Positions 1 through 8,142 of a stretch of 64,000 bases of DNA are shown one piece after another; position 1 is the stretch's first letter; each line of letters starts with the position of its first letter. The stretch is taken from assembly GCF_003121985.1 (NCBI RefSeq), contig NZ_QEWP01000001.1:62001-126000 (forward strand), in the 5' to 3' direction. Source of the stretch: Marinilabilia rubra (lineage in GTDB: Bacteria > Bacteroidota > Bacteroidia > Bacteroidales > Marinilabiliaceae). The translations under genes were made by a program, and so were the position numbers. Under the pieces are notes generated by a model. The model was given only the letters and a program-made list of their open reading frames with translations, searched no databases and was not told the DNA's origin.

Positions 1-1106
1 TCAAAAATCGGGGCCAGCCATTCAAAAAACATCCAGTATGGATATCCAAGTGTGCCAACAGCCTTATATTTAGGATTCAGGAACATTCTTTTATGAAGCC
101 TCAAAGTGTCCATGGTTCCGCGCATCCATCTGTTCCGCTGGCGGCCAAGGGTTTTTAAGGATTCAGGAACTTCAGTCCAGCAAAGAGGGTCCGGGACAAA
201 GTCAACGATGTAGGGGCGTTTCTTCTCGCACATATAGCGGCGCATACGCACCAGCAATTCCATATCTTCTCCGACCGTTGATTTTAAATAACCTCCACAT
301 TTTTTAACGGTTGGAATATCAAACATTCCAATGGCTCCCGAAATCAATAGTAAGCCATCGATTTTTTTCCATGCCATGCGACCAATTAAGAAAGCCCGGA
401 TGTATTCCAGAGCCTGAAAGCGAGCCCAAAGATTGCGTGGAACATGCACCTTGGAAACGTTACCACCTGCGATTCGGCATGAGTTCGCAACCCTGACCAC
501 TGCTCCAACTGCAATCACTTTTTTGGAGGTTTCCTTTAAAAAAGGACGAATCAGTTTAAGAACTGCTTCACGGTCAATCAGAGAATCGACATCCATGGCC
601 ATGAAAAGATCGCTTCGGCAAACATTGACCCCTGCGTTCAAAGCGTCTGCTTTGCCGCCGTTCTCCTTATCAACTACAATCAGTTTCTCAAGGGCTTTAT
701 TTCTGGACTTGTAGATGCCGCGGATGGGCTTGCAGTCTATTTCATAATCGAAAGGATAATAGACCTTTTCTAAATTAAACTCTCTAATGGCCTTTTGCAG
801 AGTATCATCTTTACTTCCATCGTTTACAATAACTATTTCAAGCTTATTGTATTTTAGGGTGAGCAGACCTCTTATATTTTCAACAATACTCATGCTTTCA
901 TTAAAGGCAGGTGCAATTACTGTCACTTTAGGCGCAAAGGTCGACGAAAGAACTCCGTTTAAGTTTCCTGTTTCGGATACTCTCTCATGTTGTTGCAGAG
1001 CCACTCCCGCCATCAGCGCGAAAATAAGATAGGACAGGCAGGCTGTCCCTGCATAAATGGCAACAGCAATCTTCCAGAAGGACGCTATGTCTGCGAAATA
1101 TTCCAT
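1..1106 (-). CDS. Processive family 2 glycosyltransferase (partial, C-terminus off the left edge)
   Basis: A membrane GT2 enzyme predicted to polymerise or transfer a sugar for a surface or exported polysaccharide. About 368 residues are visible. A transmembrane segment (about 10-36) is followed by the GT-A catalytic domain, with NDGS (95-98), the DVD metal motif (172-174), GED (279-281) and QRNRW (323-327), the QxxRW signature of processive synthases. The frame is open to base 1, so the C-terminal membrane segments are missing. The ATG lies 3 bases after the stop of the HEAT gene, so it is the last gene of a tight operon with a YaiO-like protein and a response regulator. E. coli yaiO is likewise next to a GT2 gene (yaiP). 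The sugar substrate cannot be told. Confidence 0.85.
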   Translation of the reverse strand, partial: MEYFADIASFWKIAVAIYAGTACLSYLIFALMAGVALQQHERVSETGNLNGVLSSTFAPKVTVIAPAFNESMSIVENIRGLLTLKYNKLEIVIVNDGSKDDTLQKAIREFNLEKVYYPFDYEIDCKPIRGIYKSRNKALEKLIVVDKENGGKADALNAGVNVCRSDLFMAMDVDSLIDREAVLKLIRPFLKETSKKVIAVGAVVRVANSCRIAGGNVSKVHVPRNLWARFQALEYIRAFLIGRMAWKKIDGLLLISGAIGMFDIPTVKKCGGYLKSTVGEDMELLVRMRRYMCEKKRPYIVDFVPDPLCWTEVPESLKTLGRQRNRWMRGTMDTLRLHKRMFLNPKYKAVGTLGYPYWMFFEWLAPIF

Positions 1107-1109
1107 CGT

Positions 1110-2144
1110 TTAGGCTACTGTTTCCAGAGCTGCCAGTTCTATATTTTGTAAATCTTTTGAGTGATCATGGTTTCTCATCGCTTTTGCAAGCTCTATTTTT
1201 ACAGGCGTTGATTTTTCCCAGTTGAACCACTGAATCAGCATAGACAGAGGTATGTCGCTAAGCATATTTGCCGTTTGCCCGATTCTCTGCCTAACTTCAG
1301 GTTCTTCAGCTTTGTACTTCATGGCCGATTTTAGCCAGAGTTCCCGGTTATTGGTCAGGGCGAAGTAATAAACAGCTTCCGATCTGATTGCAGCCAGGGG
1401 ATCAGTGATGAGTTGGCTGATTTCGCGGTTGTTGGTCGCTTGCTTGAGGTTGCCCATAACCCTGAGGGCAAAAGAAACAACACCCGGGTTATCAACTTTT
1501 AACCATTCGGCAGCGTCTGGTTTTTGTTCCCATTTTGCTATTTCCTGGTACAAATGGATGCGTGCCCAAAGAGAAAAAGGACGATGTAATTGACTGAGAA
1601 ATTCAAAAGGGTCTCTCGTTTTTAATGCCATAACTGAAATTTGAGCCTCCACTCTAAGTTCCAGATGGGTGTCGTCAATGTATTTTTCGGCATAGGGCAC
1701 TGCTTCATGAAATTCCATGGTTCTGGCGTCTCTTAGCCCCTGGGCTACGATCCACCATTTTTTACTTTTAAGTTTCTTGATAATGTATTTCTCCAGTCCC
1801 AGGTTGTAGAACAAATCCTTTATTTTATCAGAAAATTCGCCGCTGAAATTGTGCATTAAGAATATGACTGAATCGAAAAGATATTTTTTCTCACTTTTAC
1901 CCTTTAACCTGCAAATTGTTGAGACCTCTTTATCATCAGAAAGGAGGCAGTCAATCAATAAATCATTGTATTTCTGGTTTTTTCTGAGGTGTTTTGCAGC
2001 TCTTTTTCTGAAAAAGTACTGACGTATCAGTAAAAAAAGCGTTACACTGATAATTATTACAGTTAGTGCCATGGCAGATAATCCCACATAAGAAATTATT
2101 GTGGAGGTGCTTTCTTGTATTATGTTTGAGGAAAGGTCTTCCAT
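1110..2144 (-). CDS. Membrane-anchored HEAT-repeat protein
   Basis: The 344-aa protein has one N-terminal transmembrane segment (about 17-41) and a basic RQYFFRKR stop-transfer, so the long helical part should be cytoplasmic. The remainder is alpha-helical with HEAT-like units, for example around LRVEAQISVMAL and IRSEAVYYFAL. No catalytic motif is seen. It lies between the YaiO-like gene (8-base gap upstream) and the GT2 gene (3-base gap downstream). An adaptor or scaffold role for the glycosyltransferase is inferred from position only. Confidence 0.7.
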   Translation of the reverse strand: MEDLSSNIIQESTSTIISYVGLSAMALTVIIISVTLFLLIRQYFFRKRAAKHLRKNQKYNDLLIDCLLSDDKEVSTICRLKGKSEKKYLFDSVIFLMHNFSGEFSDKIKDLFYNLGLEKYIIKKLKSKKWWIVAQGLRDARTMEFHEAVPYAEKYIDDTHLELRVEAQISVMALKTRDPFEFLSQLHRPFSLWARIHLYQEIAKWEQKPDAAEWLKVDNPGVVSFALRVMGNLKQATNNREISQLITDPLAAIRSEAVYYFALTNNRELWLKSAMKYKAEEPEVRQRIGQTANMLSDIPLSMLIQWFNWEKSTPVKIELAKAMRNHDHSKDLQNIELAALETVA

Positions 2145-2152
2145 AGCTGTAA

Positions 2153-3370
2153 TTAAAATTTATATTCCAGACCTATTTGTGCCAGAAAAACATTTCGCCA
2201 TTTTCCTGAAGAATATTCATCCATGCTGTATTCGCCCTTTATGCGACCATAAATGGGGCCTCCTATTTTTAGTATAGCATAGGCTCCGGTGGATATGCGT
2301 TTGGTGTTCAGTGTTTCAGAAAGTTCAAATTGGCGTTCTGTCCTGTCCGGATTGGTCCCGTATCCCGCATAAAAATGAATATAGCTATTGGGATCTTTTA
2401 AGTAGCGCCTGACAGAGGCTGTAGCTGCTATGCTACTTTCCGGTTCAGGCGAGAAGAAGAGGCGGATTCCGGGATACCATTTCCCCAGGTAACGGCTTGC
2501 TGAGAGGGTGAAGAAAAACAGGTGATCGTCCCAATATAAATACCTGCCTCCCGAAGAAACCTCCCATCCTTTGGAAAGAGTATGGAACCATTCCAGGGCA
2601 CTGCGGTGGGATGGAAAAACGTCCGATTCAGAATATGCATAATTGACATACAGGTAAGAGGACGTTCCCAGAAGCGGATAAAAGTCTAATCCAGCCTGAC
2701 TTCCGGTGAAAGTGGTATCCCCGCTGCCCAGGCTCCCGAAACTGAGCCTTGGAATAAGTTTTAAGTTGTGATCTCCGATAGGTGCTTCTACTGTGGTGGT
2801 GTAAAAACGACGTTCATATGGATCATTAAACCATTGCAGCGATTGCATTACCCGTATGGCTCCGGGAATTTTAAAATTCTCCAGTGATTCTTTTAACTCA
2901 ATAGCTTTTTTATTATTCGGACTTACCCGCAGCAAGTGACTAATGTCGGTTCTGGCTTCCTTAAGCAGGCCATTGCTTGCGTATGCATAGGCACGGTTGT
3001 ATAATAACGTCTCGTTGTCGGGATTTAATTCTAATCCCCGGGATGCATAATCAATAGTTTTGGCAAATTCTTCTGTGGCCAGAAAAACCGAGGAAATAGC
3101 TGTGATGGCTTCATGGTGGGTGGGGTTTTTGTTCAAGACTTCCAGAAGTGTGGCTCTGGCTTTGGAATAGTTTTTTTCCCAGTAAAAAGTTTGTCCTGTC
3201 AGAAATACCAAATCTGTGTTGGAAGGGTAATCATTGCGTTTTTGACACAGCTCCCTTGCCTTCTGGTAAGCTCCGTCCCAGGCAATCTGCCGGATAGAGT
3301 CCAGAGACTGTCCTGAGGCTGAATCCAAACAGAAAAAGAAGAAGATGATTAAGAATAAGTTCTTTTGCAT
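2153..3370 (-). CDS. YaiO-like protein: N-terminal TPR and outer-membrane beta-barrel
   Basis: A 405-aa exported protein. The chosen start gives a clean signal peptide, MQKNLFLIIFFFFCLDSASG. A start 33 bases upstream would overlap the response regulator and put a charged stretch before the signal, so it is less likely. Residues about 20-170 hold TPR-like units (AKTIDYASRGLELNPDNETLLYNRAYAYAS region). The second half alternates aromatic and polar residues and ends in GLEYKF, a terminal aromatic typical of outer-membrane barrels. This matches the YaiO family architecture. Together with the GT2 it could form a polysaccharide synthesis and export unit, with the TPR part in the periplasm. Family assignment is from pattern recognition. 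Confidence 0.75.
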   Translation of the reverse strand: MQKNLFLIIFFFFCLDSASGQSLDSIRQIAWDGAYQKARELCQKRNDYPSNTDLVFLTGQTFYWEKNYSKARATLLEVLNKNPTHHEAITAISSVFLATEEFAKTIDYASRGLELNPDNETLLYNRAYAYASNGLLKEARTDISHLLRVSPNNKKAIELKESLENFKIPGAIRVMQSLQWFNDPYERRFYTTTVEAPIGDHNLKLIPRLSFGSLGSGDTTFTGSQAGLDFYPLLGTSSYLYVNYAYSESDVFPSHRSALEWFHTLSKGWEVSSGGRYLYWDDHLFFFTLSASRYLGKWYPGIRLFFSPEPESSIAATASVRRYLKDPNSYIHFYAGYGTNPDRTERQFELSETLNTKRISTGAYAILKIGGPIYGRIKGEYSMDEYSSGKWRNVFLAQIGLEYKF

Positions 3371-3386
3371 AATAATATTTCTGGTT

Positions 3387-3770
3387 TTAATGGCCGGGTT
3401 CACAGTGCGGTACCTTAAGCAGGTATCCCACTTTCTCCCTTAACGCCCCAACACTGAATGGTTTTGAAACGTAGTCACTCGCTCCCAGTTTTATTGCCTC
3501 TTGAATGTTGTCCTCTTCCGAGAGGGCCGAAACCACAAGTATTGGAATGTCTGACCTTAGTTCATTACGAAGGTAGTTAATAACATCCAAACCGCTGTTT
3601 ACAGGCATCATTACATCAGAAATAACCAACTGAAATACCTGTTCTTTTAACTTCCGGATCGCTATGTCCCCGTTTTCAACCAATTTAACCTGATGGAAAT
3701 CTTCCAACAGTTTTCGTTCAATTATTCTTCCTATCAATCTGTCATCTTCACAAATGAGAATGTTTGCCAT
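3387..3770 (-). CDS. Stand-alone response regulator receiver protein
   Basis: A 127-aa single REC domain: acidic pair D9/D10 (ICEDD), phosphoacceptor D52 in LVISDVMMP, switch residues in VVSALS, and K103 in VSKPF. There is no output domain, so it must act through a partner protein. The start is set at MANILICEDD; the open frame extends 52 codons upstream but that part is AT-rich and unlike a REC domain. It is the first gene of the locus with the YaiO-like protein, HEAT protein and GT2, so phospho-dependent control of the glycosyltransferase machinery is a reasonable inference. No histidine kinase is nearby. Confidence 0.85.
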   Translation of the reverse strand: MANILICEDDRLIGRIIERKLLEDFHQVKLVENGDIAIRKLKEQVFQLVISDVMMPVNSGLDVINYLRNELRSDIPILVVSALSEEDNIQEAIKLGASDYVSKPFSVGALREKVGYLLKVPHCEPGH

Positions 3771-3857: not shown

Positions 3858-3887
3858 TATGACTTTAATGTAAGGATGGATTTGTTT

Positions 3888-3902
3888 TGCAACACTGTTG
3901 CA
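3888..3902. promoter_or_regulatory. Fur/Zur-type operator, copy 1
   Basis: Perfect 7-1-7 inverted repeat TGCAACA-C-TGTTGCA, 43 bases before the chosen start of the Fur-family gene and about 118 bases from the divergent response-regulator start. The 7-1-7 geometry is that of Fur-family boxes. It probably mediates autoregulation of the regulator and the downstream metal transporter. Confidence 0.6.
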
Positions 3903-3926
3903 GTTTGCGTGTTTAATTCGTATCAT

Positions 3927-3941
3927 TGCAACATGGTTGCA
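3927..3941. promoter_or_regulatory. Fur/Zur-type operator, copy 2
   Basis: TGCAACA-T-GGTTGCA, the same 7-1-7 repeat with one mismatch, centred 39 bases from the first copy. It overlaps the upstream candidate ATG at 3933 and ends 3 bases before the ATG at 3945, which favours 3945 as the true start. Confidence 0.6.
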
Positions 3942-3944
3942 TTT

Positions 3945-4355
3945 ATGGAGGATGTTGTAGCTTACATAAAAAGTTTTGGACTGTCAGGGACCCTTATACG
4001 TAAGCAGATTATAAGCTGCTTGTGGGGTGACGGAATTGCTTTGACTCAAAAAGAGATAGAGGAGAGGTTGCCGGGTGAGACCGACAGGGTTACGCTTTAT
4101 CGGACCCTCAGGTTATTTACCGAGAAGGGAGTTATTCACAAAATCGTAATTGATGAAGATACCCGGAAATATAAGTTAGCCGGTTCTTTCCGAAAAAGTG
4201 ACCATGCCCATTTCCATTGCATAAAATGCAACAAATTGCTTTGCATGCCACAGTTAAATGTTGATTTAAACGGCTTGCCTGCCGGTTTTCGCTATCAATC
4301 TGCAAAGCTTGTGGTTGAAGGAATATGCGATTTTTGTTCCCAAAAACAGATGTGA
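3945..4355 (+). CDS. Fur-family metal-responsive transcriptional regulator (Zur-like)
   Basis: A 136-aa repressor with an N-terminal winged helix (LTQKEIEERL...DRVTLYRTLRLF) and a C-terminal dimerisation and metal-binding part carrying HAHFHCIKC, then KLLC and GICDFC, i.e. the CxxC pairs of the structural zinc site. The start at 3945 is preferred over 3933 and 3876 because two operator-like palindromes lie immediately upstream and it gives a standard Fur length. The next gene is a ZnuA-like lipoprotein, followed by its ATPase and permease, so zinc sensing is the best guess. Manganese or iron cannot be excluded. Confidence 0.85.
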   Translation: MEDVVAYIKSFGLSGTLIRKQIISCLWGDGIALTQKEIEERLPGETDRVTLYRTLRLFTEKGVIHKIVIDEDTRKYKLAGSFRKSDHAHFHCIKCNKLLCMPQLNVDLNGLPAGFRYQSAKLVVEGICDFCSQKQM

Positions 4356-4374
4356 AATATATAAATTCATTTCA

Positions 4375-5259
4375 ATGAGATTTAAGAGATTAATATTTCT
4401 AATTGCCTTCCTCATACCCGGAGCATTAGTGTTTTTGCAGTCATGTGGAAATAAAAAGGAAAACGAAGCTGAAATTACTGTTTCTATAGAACCACTAAAA
4501 TATTTTGTTGAAGAATTAACCTCCTGGGATATAGAGGTAAATGTGATGGTTCCAATGGGGGCGAGTCCGGCTACTTATTCACCTACTGCCAGTCAATTAA
4601 CCGGACTTTCTTCCTCTCGGCTGTATGTACAGGCCGGCTATCTGGGGTTCGAACAAGCCTGGATGCCGAGGCTCAAGGAATTGAATCCGGAGTTGAAGGT
4701 TTTAAATCTGTCAACTGACCTTAATTTAATAAGAGGGGAAGACCATGTACATGGAGACCATGTTCATAAGGGCGGAGTTGATCCTCATATCTGGATGTCA
4801 CCTAAAGTTGTTATGGAGTTTTTACCCAGGCTAAGAGAAAGTTTAATTGAAACCTTTCCTGAGTATAAGCAGGAGATTGTTCAACAATATCCGGAGCTTT
4901 ATGGCAGAATAAAAAAACAGCATGAAGCATTTGCCAAATTGGGGACTCATTTGAAAAAGAAGGAATTTATGATTTTTCACCCGGCGCTTACTTATCTGGC
5001 GAGGGATTATGGCTTAAAACAAATTCCCCTGGAGTATGAAGGTAAGGAGCCCACGCCTCAAAAATTGCGCAACCTGATTGATCTGGCCAATAAAGCCAAT
5101 ATAAAGGTTATCTTTATACAGGTTGAATTTGATCGTAAGAGTGCAGGCATGGTGACGGAAGAAACAGATGCCAGCCTTGTGCCTCTTAATCCCCTGGCTC
5201 ATGATTGGGATGGGGAGATGAAACGTATTCATGATCTTTTAGAGGAATATCTTAAATAG
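4375..5259 (+). CDS. znuA: Zinc/manganese ABC transporter substrate-binding lipoprotein (ZnuA-like)
   Basis: A 294-aa lipoprotein: the start at MRFKRLIFLIAF gives a hydrophobic signal ending in LQSC-G (lipobox). The later frame shows the cluster A-I metal-binding fold, with a His-rich loop (EDHVHGDHVHKGG), DPHIWMSP and IFHPALTYLARDYGL. Two positions differ from E. coli-type ZnuA: the first ligand His (GAxxH region) is Ala in MGASPATYSP, and the Asp of DPLG is Asn in LNPLAHDW. The nearby His may compensate. The start lies 19 bases after the Fur-family gene, so they are co-transcribed. The ATPase and permease follow after a 200-base gap holding a repeat. Confidence 0.85.
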   Translation: MRFKRLIFLIAFLIPGALVFLQSCGNKKENEAEITVSIEPLKYFVEELTSWDIEVNVMVPMGASPATYSPTASQLTGLSSSRLYVQAGYLGFEQAWMPRLKELNPELKVLNLSTDLNLIRGEDHVHGDHVHKGGVDPHIWMSPKVVMEFLPRLRESLIETFPEYKQEIVQQYPELYGRIKKQHEAFAKLGTHLKKKEFMIFHPALTYLARDYGLKQIPLEYEGKEPTPQKLRNLIDLANKANIKVIFIQVEFDRKSAGMVTEETDASLVPLNPLAHDWDGEMKRIHDLLEEYLK

Positions 5260-5263
5260 ACGT

Positions 5264-5390
5264 GTCTGTCCATAAAGTACCACTTGCGTCGTTACGCTTA
5301 CCGCCAAAATACTCATCCCGAAGGATCGGGGCTGCGCTTTTGGCAAGCCTAACGCGGTAAATGGGACTTTCTGGACGCGAACTAAATAGT
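5264..5390. repeat. Dispersed intergenic repeat A, copy 1
   Basis: Begins GTCTGTCCATAAAGTAC and continues through GCCAAAATACTCATCCCGA. Bases 5264-5328 match 62161-62224 with scattered C/T and A/G changes. The right end (GGGACTTTCTGGAC) is roughly the reverse complement of the left end, so the unit may fold or be a decayed short inverted-repeat element. It splits znuA from znuC. Confidence 0.7.
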
Positions 5391-5459
5391 GCCAGCAAGA
5401 AAACTAAGGTTTTTCTAAATAATTGTTTTTTGATTCTTAACGCTTAAGAAGAGGAGTTT

Positions 5460-6200
5460 ATGCCAGAACCGCTGATATCTGTTCGTGAAGTTACGGCCGC
5501 ATATAATGGAGATCCTGTATTAACAGATGTAGATCTGGATATTTTCCCGAATGACTTCATTGGTGTAATTGGCCCCAATGGTGGTGGAAAAACGACCCTG
5601 TCTAAGATACTTTTTGGGATTCTAAAACCCCAAAAGGGTAAGGTTTCTTTTCCATCCGGCAGACCCAATATTGGCTACCTGCCACAGGTTTCCCGCCTTG
5701 ATCACTCTTTTCCCATTACTGTTCTGGATGTGGTCTTGTCAGGTCTTTCTTCCAAAGGTACCTGGTGGCGATCATTGACCTCAGGCCACAAAAAAAAGGC
5801 TTTGAATCTGATTACTGAAAACGGACTTGAAGGATTGGCTAATCGCCCTGTAGGTACTTTGTCGGGCGGTCAGCTTCAGAGAGCCCTTTTGGCACGCGCC
5901 ATCATCAACGATCCTCAGGTGTTGGTTTTGGATGAGCCCAACACTTTTGTTGACAGGAACTTTGAAGGTGAACTCTATCAATTGCTTGGCAAACTGAACG
6001 AGACGATGGCCATATTCTTAATCTCACATGATATTGGAACGATTTCCTCCATTGTGAAAACAATCGCCTGCGTAAATGGCACATTGCATTATCACCCATC
6101 CAATGTCCTTACTGATGAGGTCCTGAAAGTTTACAACTGCCCAATAGATTTGATTGCTCACGGTCCGGTGCCTCACCGGGTTTTAAAAAAGCACACATGA
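5460..6200 (+). CDS. znuC: Zinc/manganese ABC transporter ATP-binding protein (ZnuC-like)
   Basis: A 246-aa ABC ATPase: Walker A GPNGGGKT (38-45), signature LSGGQ (134-138), Walker B VLVLDEP (154-160) and H-loop ISHD. DEPNTFVD after Walker B is usual for the metal-uptake (cluster A-I) group. A good ribosome site (AAGAGGAG) precedes the ATG. Its stop overlaps the permease start (ATGA), giving translational coupling. It energises uptake of the metal delivered by the lipoprotein upstream. Confidence 0.9.
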   Translation: MPEPLISVREVTAAYNGDPVLTDVDLDIFPNDFIGVIGPNGGGKTTLSKILFGILKPQKGKVSFPSGRPNIGYLPQVSRLDHSFPITVLDVVLSGLSSKGTWWRSLTSGHKKKALNLITENGLEGLANRPVGTLSGGQLQRALLARAIINDPQVLVLDEPNTFVDRNFEGELYQLLGKLNETMAIFLISHDIGTISSIVKTIACVNGTLHYHPSNVLTDEVLKVYNCPIDLIAHGPVPHRVLKKHT

Positions 6201-7015
6201 TGGATACCCTTTTTTCCCTTTTTCAATATCAGTTTTTTCAAAATGCGGTGGCAACAGCCTTGCTTACAAGTTTGCTGGCTGCTATGATCGGCACCTATAT
6301 TGTGAGTCGCAAAATTGTATTTATCAGTGGAGGTATTACTCACGCTTCATTTGGAGGTATTGGTTTGGCTTATTTTTTGGGATTGAATCCATTTCTTGGA
6401 GCCGTTGCATTTGCCATTACCACCGCCTTGGGCATAGAATGGATTTCTACCAAAGGGAAAATTCGGGAAGATAGTGCAATAGCCATTGTTTGGTCACTGG
6501 GTATGGCGCTGGGGATCATTTTTGTTTTTCTCACACCGGGATATACTCCCAATCTCATGAGTTTTTTGTTTGGAAGTATACTTTCTGTGGGCCGTTGGGA
6601 TATATGGATTTTACTTGCTGTATTGGTGGTTACTGCATTGTTTTTTGTTTTGTTTTTCAGACCGGTTATATACACAGCTTTTGATCCTGAGTTTGCCAGA
6701 ACCAGAGGTCTTCCGGTAGCTTTGATCCGTCATGTAATGGCAGTATTGATTGCGATGGCCATTGTTTTAAGCATCCGGACCATGGGAATCATTTTGGTGT
6801 TGAGTCTTTTTACTATTCCGCAAAATACAGCCATGCTGATGTCCGGTAGATTTAGAAACATTATTTTCGGATCTGCAATTTTTGGTGTTGTTGGCTCGGT
6901 TGTTGGATTACTGACTGCTTCGTTACTGGATATTCCCGGTAGTGCAGCTATTATATTTGTTTTAACTTTACAATTTCTATTACTTAAAGGGTTTATTCTA
7001 TTGAAGTTGAGGTAG
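6197..7015 (+). CDS. znuB: Zinc/manganese ABC transporter permease (ZnuB-like)
   Basis: A 272-aa inner-membrane protein with about eight hydrophobic segments and the ABC-3 family features GGITHASFGGIGLAYFLG near the N-terminus and PQNTAMLMSGRF after a long helix. It overlaps znuC by 4 bases. Family membership fits the zinc/manganese permeases, and the regulator, lipoprotein and ATPase upstream complete the system. Confidence 0.9.
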   Translation: MMDTLFSLFQYQFFQNAVATALLTSLLAAMIGTYIVSRKIVFISGGITHASFGGIGLAYFLGLNPFLGAVAFAITTALGIEWISTKGKIREDSAIAIVWSLGMALGIIFVFLTPGYTPNLMSFLFGSILSVGRWDIWILLAVLVVTALFFVLFFRPVIYTAFDPEFARTRGLPVALIRHVMAVLIAMAIVLSIRTMGIILVLSLFTIPQNTAMLMSGRFRNIIFGSAIFGVVGSVVGLLTASLLDIPGSAAIIFVLTLQFLLLKGFILLKLR

Positions 7016-7020
7016 AGTTA

Positions 7021-8142
7021 TTAACGGCCTTTTCTGTCTTTCCAGCTTTCACGAATAAAAAGACTACCTACACCTGCTGTTAAAATGTAATAAGGGTAGA
7101 TCAATGAAAAGGAAAGAAAGGCCGGGAGACCGGTTCGTACTGAGAAAAAGCTTTTTCCAGAATTAAGTAAGCTCCAGTCTGCCGATGTTTTTATCAATAC
7201 TGCTGCAACCCAAATTGTAAAGAACTGAATCCCGAAGAACAATGCAATAAAAGGCATGATGGCTATAAATGTATTAACAATCAGGATTGTAAGTGCTGTA
7301 TTTCGTGCAAAATGGTCTTCGTATCCTTTGCTTTTCCCCCCCCACCTCATGCGCTGCAGGAGAAATTGTTTTAATGAATCTGCCGGATACGTTTTGGCCA
7401 TTGCCTGGGCCGATTTCAGGTAGATGATTCTAAATGATTGTGACTTAAAGGTGTGAAGAAGAAATACATCATCACCTGATAAGTATTGAGTTCCCTGAAT
7501 ATTTTTGGATGTTTCAAGAAATGACTTCTTTTTAAATGCAAGATTCGCACCACTCGAGATGATTGGATTTCCATTCCCCATTGCGCCTGCTGTAGCTAGC
7601 TGAAGTGCCAGATAATCATTCTGTTGAAACCGGTCAATCCATCTTTTCCCGCTTTCCATGCCCACCGGCATCACTATCATATCCGGATTTTTCTCCAGAT
7701 AGGTCTCGGCAATGGTTTGAAGCCAATCGCGGCTGAAGTGACAATCTGCATCCGTTGTTACAATTAGTTCACCCGTGGCAGAAGAAATTCCGGATCGCAA
7801 AGCCGCTTTTTTACCCTGCTTCTTAGATGATACGATTTTTAACCATTGGTGGCTTTTCTGCAACTGTTTGGCTGTTTCAAACCCGTTGTCTGTGGAGTGA
7901 TCATCGACTAAAACTATCTCCATGTGATGCGGAGAGAAACGTTGTTCCGATAAATTTTTTACCAGCTTTAAAAGGTTTTCTTCCTCGTTTCGAAAAGGAA
8001 TTATTACTGAAATAAAAACACGACCATGAAAATGATGTCCTGTATTGATTTCAGGCAGCTTCAGCCATCCCGACCTGAATTGAAAAATCATTCTGGCATA
8101 ATGGAAAAGAAGAATTGCCGATATAATGGAAAGGTATACCAT
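7021..8142 (-). CDS. Membrane-bound family 2 glycosyltransferase
   Basis: The 373-aa protein has an N-terminal transmembrane segment, a GT2 domain with VDDHSTDN, DADCHF (DxD) and QRMRWGGK (QxxRW), and two to three C-terminal hydrophobic segments. The shape is that of processive or lipid-linked sugar transferases. It ends 6 bases from the convergent znuB stop and belongs to no obvious operon, so the product is unknown. It is distinct from the GT2 at the left edge, being shorter, with other spacing and no YaiO/HEAT partners. Confidence 0.8.
   Translation of the reverse strand: MVYLSIISAILLFHYARMIFQFRSGWLKLPEINTGHHFHGRVFISVIIPFRNEEENLLKLVKNLSEQRFSPHHMEIVLVDDHSTDNGFETAKQLQKSHQWLKIVSSKKQGKKAALRSGISSATGELIVTTDADCHFSRDWLQTIAETYLEKNPDMIVMPVGMESGKRWIDRFQQNDYLALQLATAGAMGNGNPIISSGANLAFKKKSFLETSKNIQGTQYLSGDDVFLLHTFKSQSFRIIYLKSAQAMAKTYPADSLKQFLLQRMRWGGKSKGYEDHFARNTALTILIVNTFIAIMPFIALFFGIQFFTIWVAAVLIKTSADWSLLNSGKSFFSVRTGLPAFLSFSLIYPYYILTAGVGSLFIRESWKDRKGR

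Follow-up and report, generated by a model that had tools for sequence, protein, structure and literature searches.

How might bacteria that lack cyclic di-GMP (c-di-GMP) control the synthases with which they build and export polysaccharides? To our knowledge this question has no settled answer, and it is raised by a gene cluster of Marinilabilia rubra that lies at one end of the stretch of DNA analysed here (the window; 64,000 nucleotides, bases 62001-126000 of contig C1, NZ_QEWP01000001.1, in a genome of 5.38 Mb). A previous inspection of the letters alone (the sequence-only reading) had claimed that a phosphorylatable receiver, an outer-membrane TPR/barrel protein, a HEAT protein and a family 2 glycosyltransferase (GT2) are encoded here in one operon, as a regulated machine for polysaccharide synthesis and export. 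Our results lead us to favour, with some reserve, a synthase-dependent exopolysaccharide system under post-translational control, in which a phosphorylated stand-alone receiver would act on the HEAT protein and the GT2.

The operon and its products

The four genes lie on the minus strand with intergenic gaps of 16, 8 and 3 bp between RR1, YaiO, HEAT and GT2, and form the single tight operon that had been claimed. All of them are present in the window, but the GT2 gene extends past the window edge, and a second receiver gene, RR2, lies beyond it:

3387..3770, minus strand: RR1, stand-alone receiver (single-domain response regulator), 127 amino acids (aa), with the acid pocket E8/D9/D10, the phospho-acceptor D52, S81 and K103
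2153..3370, minus strand: tetratricopeptide repeat (TPR) plus YaiO-family outer-membrane beta-barrel protein (the exporter), 405 aa, assigned with Pfam PF19413, NCBIfam TIGR04390, AlphaFold and Foldseek
1110..2144, minus strand: membrane-anchored HEAT-repeat protein, 344 aa, with one N-terminal hydrophobic helix and then about 300 aa predicted to be cytosolic
1..1106, minus strand (full gene C1:61676-63106): processive-type GT2, 476 aa, the first 368 of them inside the window
C1:61083-61472, outside the window, 203 bp after the GT2 gene: RR2, second stand-alone receiver, 129 aa

Note that the start sites of the open reading frames (ORFs), which were called mechanically, carry some uncertainty, as do a few overlaps; for RR1 the start is the ATG at 3770, the longest in-frame ORF beginning at 3926.

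RR1 matches the Pfam Response_reg family (1.6e-24) and consists of a REC domain only, with the acid pocket, the aspartate, the S/T and the lysine in place and no output domain. The residues needed for phosphorylation are thus present, in agreement with the proposed phosphorylatable receiver. These residues are also kept in the family: of 60 aligned receivers, namely RR1, RR2 and 58 from the named loci described below, all keep S/T81 and K103, 58 have D at position 52 while the other 2 have E, and 59 have E or D at position 8 of the acid pocket.

The GT2 matches Pfam Glyco_tranf_2_3 (3.8e-20), and only glycosyltransferase-type families are among its matches. The catalytic D residues are present, and the Q, R and W of the QxxRW motif, which had been noted before and is hereby confirmed, occur in 81 of 81 GT2 sequences; the search pattern for the GT2 included the GED motif, which is hence no independent evidence. 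These features would qualify the protein as a processive inner-membrane synthase. Among the E. coli proteins compared, the nearest is PgaC (24% identity over 391 aa, 100 bits; 45 bits for YaiP). We give the polymer no name, because the GT2 remains far below the cut-off of the PgaC equivalog TIGR03937 (120.8 versus 422.3 bits).

Synthases of this GT2 type both polymerise their product and translocate it, and TPR-barrel proteins export it. The window exporter carries TPRs and matches the YaiO family well above cut-off, both in Pfam (PF19413; 9.3e-31, 107.6 bits versus 23.9) and in NCBIfam (TIGR04390; 79.5 bits versus 32), and its N terminus, judged by eye, is signal-peptide-like. Its AlphaFold model (predicted local distance difference test, pLDDT, 92.8) shows a TPR part and 14 predicted strands, and in a Foldseek search against the PDB the top, though modest, match was the E. 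coli cellulose exporter BcsC (E 3e-9), with PelBC at rank 49. Family and fold hence support the outer-membrane TPR/barrel that had been proposed, and the model has the periplasmic TPR part and outer-membrane barrel by which the exporters of synthase-dependent systems are recognised.

The HEAT protein of the window, taken alone, matches Pfam HEAT_2 weakly (8.1e-4, below cut-off), and the profile of its family matches alphaRep HEAT proteins. Its AlphaFold model (pLDDT 90.9) consists of a long N-terminal helix and then a helical-repeat solenoid, so the protein is predicted to be an alpha-solenoid of HEAT repeats. The structures that match this model in Foldseek and VIA-align, alphaRep, armadillo and helical-repeat proteins of many kinds, give the predicted fold and no function. 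Hydrophobic segments number up to eight in some family members, but the more positive flank follows the last segment in 71 of 77, and 295-350 aa come after that segment in 73 of 77. By the positive-inside rule, this would place the solenoid in the cytosol, where it would be accessible to the receiver.

Conservation of the receiver, HEAT and GT2 genes

Close relatives were surveyed by a single-sequence HEAT search in 61 genomes, the own genome included. A HEAT match was found in seven, and the order receiver-YaiO-HEAT-GT2 was intact in all six that were read, the own genome among them (G000, G002, G003, G005, G019 and G043; the seventh is G058). The genes were not found apart in these relatives: two of the four same-genus genomes keep them together, and the other two gave no HEAT match.

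We then considered a wider set of 80 named loci, those ranked highest by GT2 likeness among at least 579. All are titled as Bacteroidota groups with the exception of L033, titled Armatimonadetes, which is on a short contig (79/80). Loci too short for a given count were excluded, leaving 78 with at least 1.1 kb upstream, 69 with 4 kb upstream and 66 longer than 12 kb. HEAT is in the same-strand run with the GT2 in 76 of 78 loci (exceptions L026 and L065), and 55 of 69 have a receiver of at most 160 aa there. YaiO was found somewhere in 57 of the 66 long loci and was not found in the remaining nine; in only 40 of the 66 it is in the same-strand run. The conserved core is therefore REC-HEAT-GT2, while the position of YaiO varies, and the four-gene unit of the sequence-only reading stands for these three genes and not for the place of the fourth.

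A second sample, of 148 genomes drawn separately from the phylum, was searched with a HEAT profile (cut-off 1e-15) and a GT2 profile (1e-80). Both profiles derive from members of the module and were applied at strict cut-offs, and thus gauge the exclusivity of the subfamilies, not all GT2 or HEAT proteins. HEAT matches numbered 31, spread over 27 genomes, and GT2 matches 45, spread over 40. Directly upstream of the GT2, a HEAT gene was found in 43 of the 45 loci by profile (the weakest in L132, E 5e-5), and in L136 by Pfam HEAT_2; in L139 none was found. Conversely, 30 of the 31 HEAT matches adjoin a GT2 match (exception G083). A receiver is upstream in 34 of the 45 loci, 31 times as a small ORF and three times (L131, L133, L135) as an ORF of 541-595 aa that also has GGDEF. 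The linkage of REC, HEAT and GT2 thus recurs far beyond chance. In the Bacteroidia, which we take to be the class of the window, 18 of 36 sampled genomes have the module, not counting the own genome.

In L148 (G202 C19:139000-158500) the HEAT-GT2 pair occurs twice in a single run; YaiO separates the two pairs, and only the first has a receiver.

Signalling genes around the modules

A receiver-bearing protein of more than 500 aa is in the run in 16 of the 69 named loci, typically just before the small receiver. All five large proteins tested (L041, L072, L149, L151 and L160) contain HisKA, HATPase and REC, and three of them, those of L041, L151 and L160, have a C-terminal histidine phosphotransfer (Hpt) match, in L160 below cut-off; the kinase of L129 has HisKA and HATPase without REC. 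Between kinase and receiver, L149 encodes a 247-aa protein with a sub-threshold REC match, and L055, L078, L080 and L090 encode proteins of 239-251 aa with an Hpt match, which passes the Pfam cut-off in L080 and L090 only. Judged by its domains, this set of kinase, Hpt and receiver genes has the anatomy of a phosphorelay that ends in a stand-alone receiver.

Further receivers are found around the M. rubra operon and elsewhere in its genome. RR2 is the closest RR1 paralogue in the genome (45%, E 4e-29; next-best 1e-15) and probably arose by local duplication, because it is by far the nearest relative of RR1 there. A receiver is also found downstream of the GT2 in two same-genus genomes, with one gene intervening; in L010 this gene belongs to the haemolysin-III family. 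Moreover, the own genome has a second, diverged REC-YaiO-HEAT-GT2 cluster on contig C15 (L009:4775-9682), with an unusual receiver, a YaiO match (E 6e-50), proteins of the HEAT-like and GT2 kinds with 18% and 49% identity, respectively, and then a hemerythrin-domain protein. In this receiver the usual MPxxSG stretch is missing, with D52 and the lysine kept.

A model for control by the receiver, and the case against it

Given the parts, their order and exclusivity, the conserved residues and the predicted topology, we infer both a polymer and an action of the phosphorylated receiver. The GT2 would polymerise sugar from a nucleotide donor and move the polymer through the inner membrane, and the TPR and YaiO barrel protein would carry it over the periplasm and the outer membrane. 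The HEAT protein, with one helix in the inner membrane and a cytosolic solenoid, would be the dedicated partner of the GT2. A phosphorelay would phosphorylate the stand-alone receiver; in several relatives the candidate is the hybrid histidine kinase encoded next door, in some with Hpt. The phosphorylated receiver would then dock on the HEAT-GT2 complex and turn synthesis on (or off), and in the own genome RR2 would serve as a further input or as a sink for phosphate.

Several observations weigh against this model. The run lacks a small receiver in 14 of the 69 named loci, and none is upstream in 11 of the 45 sampled loci (two of these, L132 and L163, stop at the contig end), so the receiver is not indispensable. 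Two of the 60 aligned receivers (L057:5419-5772 and L059:5834-6235) have E in place of D52 and altered acid-pocket residues, and are possibly locked in one state. Next to the operon of the own genome we saw no kinase gene, and the search for kinases did not cover the remainder of the window; the sole kinase-like gene seen in L001 (18.5 kb) is in a pair about 11 kb from RR2 which looks, by eye, LytTR-type. The BcsC match of the exporter has a TM-score of only 0.41 by query length, with general porins close behind. Some modules of classes other than Bacteroidia carry GGDEF proteins. Finally, the correlations of protein distances over 48 loci (HEAT-GT2 0.75, REC-GT2 0.60, REC-YaiO 0.58, REC-HEAT 0.30) leave -0.27 for REC-HEAT after GT2 is removed, and REC tracks the periplasmic and outer-membrane YaiO as closely as it tracks GT2. 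Since REC-YaiO is similar to REC-GT2, these correlations show shared history and not contact. As a test of REC-HEAT contact they were therefore discarded; the receiver may dock on the GT2 itself, or shared history may be all that is reflected here.

An alternative is that synthase and exporter are read correctly but the receiver makes no contact with them, being a phosphorelay intermediate or sink (Spo0F- or DifD-like) for another output, and that the HEAT protein is an assembly scaffold only. We regard this as unlikely, though it is the strongest of the alternatives. It would account for the runs in which the small receiver is missing and for REC and HEAT distances that do not covary beyond GT2, and it fits both the Hpt-like proteins nearby and RR2, a nearby paralogue as in activator/sink pairs (DifD is described as a sink in the portion of PMC12802240 available). 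What speaks for a receiver acting on the synthase is that in several classes of the phylum it adjoins the genes of the synthase and keeps its phosphorylation residues, and that it remains beside HEAT-GT2 where YaiO sits elsewhere.

Accessory genes and the nature of the product

A family of proteins of about 680 aa is encoded in 24 of the 80 named loci. The stand-alone member that was tested contains a domain of Sulfatase fold and weakly resembles phosphoglycerol transferases and a lipoteichoic acid primase, and in L085 (7857-11453) the GT2 is fused to such a domain in one protein of 1199 aa; the GT2 ORFs of L056, L065 and L067 are of similar length (1021-1180 aa). With such proteins encoded in these loci, the polymer may often be phospho-substituted. 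These genes also allow a different product, a periplasmic or membrane-bound glycan like the membrane-derived oligosaccharides of E. coli, decorated with phosphoglycerol or phosphoethanolamine by the Sulfatase-fold transferase, with some other role for YaiO, and the nine long loci in which YaiO was not found would suit it. We consider such a product improbable: YaiO is in the other 57 long loci, the top fold match of the exporter is BcsC, and the cluster of the window has no Sulfatase-fold transferase gene, the two matches in the genome being on other contigs.

In Marinifilum and Labilibaculum loci (L052:5425-6741 and L068:5450-6733) a CotH-family protein is encoded between YaiO and HEAT, and there is no small receiver in the run. 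A further family, of 390 aa (L064:2952-4121 and relatives), occurs in 19 of the 80 loci, in several next to YaiO, and has many invariant aromatic and acidic residues; its tested member had no Pfam or NCBIfam match, and a seven-row profile found no PDB match better than E 0.7.

The relation to c-di-GMP

Control by c-di-GMP is common in synthase-dependent systems, without being a defining trait, and would not be expected in M. rubra from its sequence: the own genome has neither a GGDEF nor a PilZ match. At a threshold of 1e-8, GGDEF is found in 78 of the 148 sampled genomes. Among the Bacteroidia, with the own genome included, it is found in 1 of 37 (G097), and in none of the 19 that have the module. 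Of the 21 module genomes of other classes, 12 have GGDEF. In at least 7 of these 12 (G068, G104, G108, G110, G118, G205 and G207) a GGDEF match is inside the module locus, while in G064, G153, G157 and G200 the matches listed are on other contigs than the module; the twelfth genome is G142. By Pfam, L131 (4167-5951) and L135 (3395-5032) encode two receiver stretches and GGDEF in one protein, directly upstream of HEAT-GT2 and in the position of the receiver, and L140 and L141 have a GGDEF protein nearby. An upstream receiver was not found in L140, L141 and L142, three of the seven GGDEF-containing loci.

This distribution indicates that the module exists both with and without c-di-GMP enzymes. 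We tentatively suggest that Bacteroidota free of c-di-GMP have a widespread synthase which is switched directly by a phosphorylated receiver on a dedicated HEAT adaptor, that is, a two-component replacement for c-di-GMP. Such a replacement would be traceable, because related modules in other classes carry GGDEF, in some cases fused to receivers in the same gene position. A GT2 tree left the direction of change between the GGDEF-linked state and the other unresolved, with deep forks open and outgroups on very long branches. The idea that a cyclic nucleotide is the ancestral and still the main control, with the receiver acting only on its enzyme and another nucleotide binding HEAT or GT2 in the Bacteroidia, could draw on the GGDEF matches inside modules and on the L131 and L135 proteins, but it is very improbable given that no Bacteroidia module genome has GGDEF, that the own genome has no PilZ match either, and that no nucleotide-binding domain is listed among the family matches of the HEAT protein or the GT2.

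Genes next to the operon

Divergent to the operon, at 3876-7015 of the window, are genes for a regulator of the FUR family and a binding protein of the ZnuA type, and, named by eye, for an ABC ATPase and an ABC permease; similar-looking genes follow in two same-genus genomes. They are followed at 7021-8142 by a further GT2 of 373 aa with no adjoining HEAT or receiver, and a like gene, judged by eye, is at the equivalent place in L011 (13053-14171). A scan for promoters and terminators gave counts at the level of shuffled sequence (12 versus 11.1, and 5 versus 5.5) and was set aside, and a search of viral contigs found no relative.

Comparison with known systems

The cluster resembles the Bcs (cellulose) and Pga (poly-N-acetylglucosamine) systems in its membrane GT2 with QxxRW, in this case 24% identical to PgaC, and its exporter of TPRs and an outer-membrane barrel. 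It differs from them in the added HEAT protein and stand-alone receiver, in a short exporter with 14 predicted strands, and in a genome with no PilZ or GGDEF match. E. coli yaiO-yaiP had been put forward as a two-gene version of the cluster. The yaiO-yaiX-yaiP-yaiS locus does combine the YaiO barrel family (PF19413) with a GT2, but the direct comparison of proteins and loci led us to reject the equivalence. At 257 aa and with no TPR hit, E. coli YaiO is unlike the 405-aa exporter of the window; the window GT2 is nearer to PgaC than to YaiP; and the locus also contains yaiX and yaiS, with no HEAT or receiver gene annotated in the stretch compared. Thus yaiOP is a weak model for this cluster.

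Post-translational control of synthase pathways is described as well characterised, often via c-di-GMP, in the portion of PMC12802240 available. According to the part of PMC8669469 consulted, E. coli NfrB-NfrA is a c-di-GMP-controlled GT2 system, and it shares with the cluster a GT2, a TPR outer-membrane protein, an exopolysaccharide and a dedicated post-translational control. E. coli NfrA has NfrA_C, unlike the exporter of the window, in which no NfrA_C match was found. For control by a receiver, the nearest case is that of Myxococcus, where the available part of PMC12802240 reports that phosphorylated EpsW, a single-domain receiver, activates the phosphoglycosyl transferase EpsZ post-translationally, DifD being described as a phosphate sink. 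EpsZ belongs to a Wzx/Wzy pathway, unlike the processive-type GT2 with a HEAT partner seen here, which the receiver would have to contact.

Of the regulated synthesis and export machine that had been proposed, the synthase, the exporter, the receiver features and the operon hold; the analogy to yaiOP is weak, and the core is REC-HEAT-GT2. That it had not been well described agrees with the literature, where none of the titles and abstracts among the matches listed dealt with such a gene set, although subscription journals were thinly covered and this is not proof of absence. The polysaccharide machine itself is of a known kind, and its putative control part, the receiver and the HEAT protein, would be what is new. 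If the receiver acts directly, control by single-domain receivers, which has been reported for an initiating transferase, would extend to polymer synthases. Since the module is widespread, its parts are conserved and a kinase is encoded alongside in several loci, the question of how synthases are controlled in bacteria without c-di-GMP becomes experimentally tractable.

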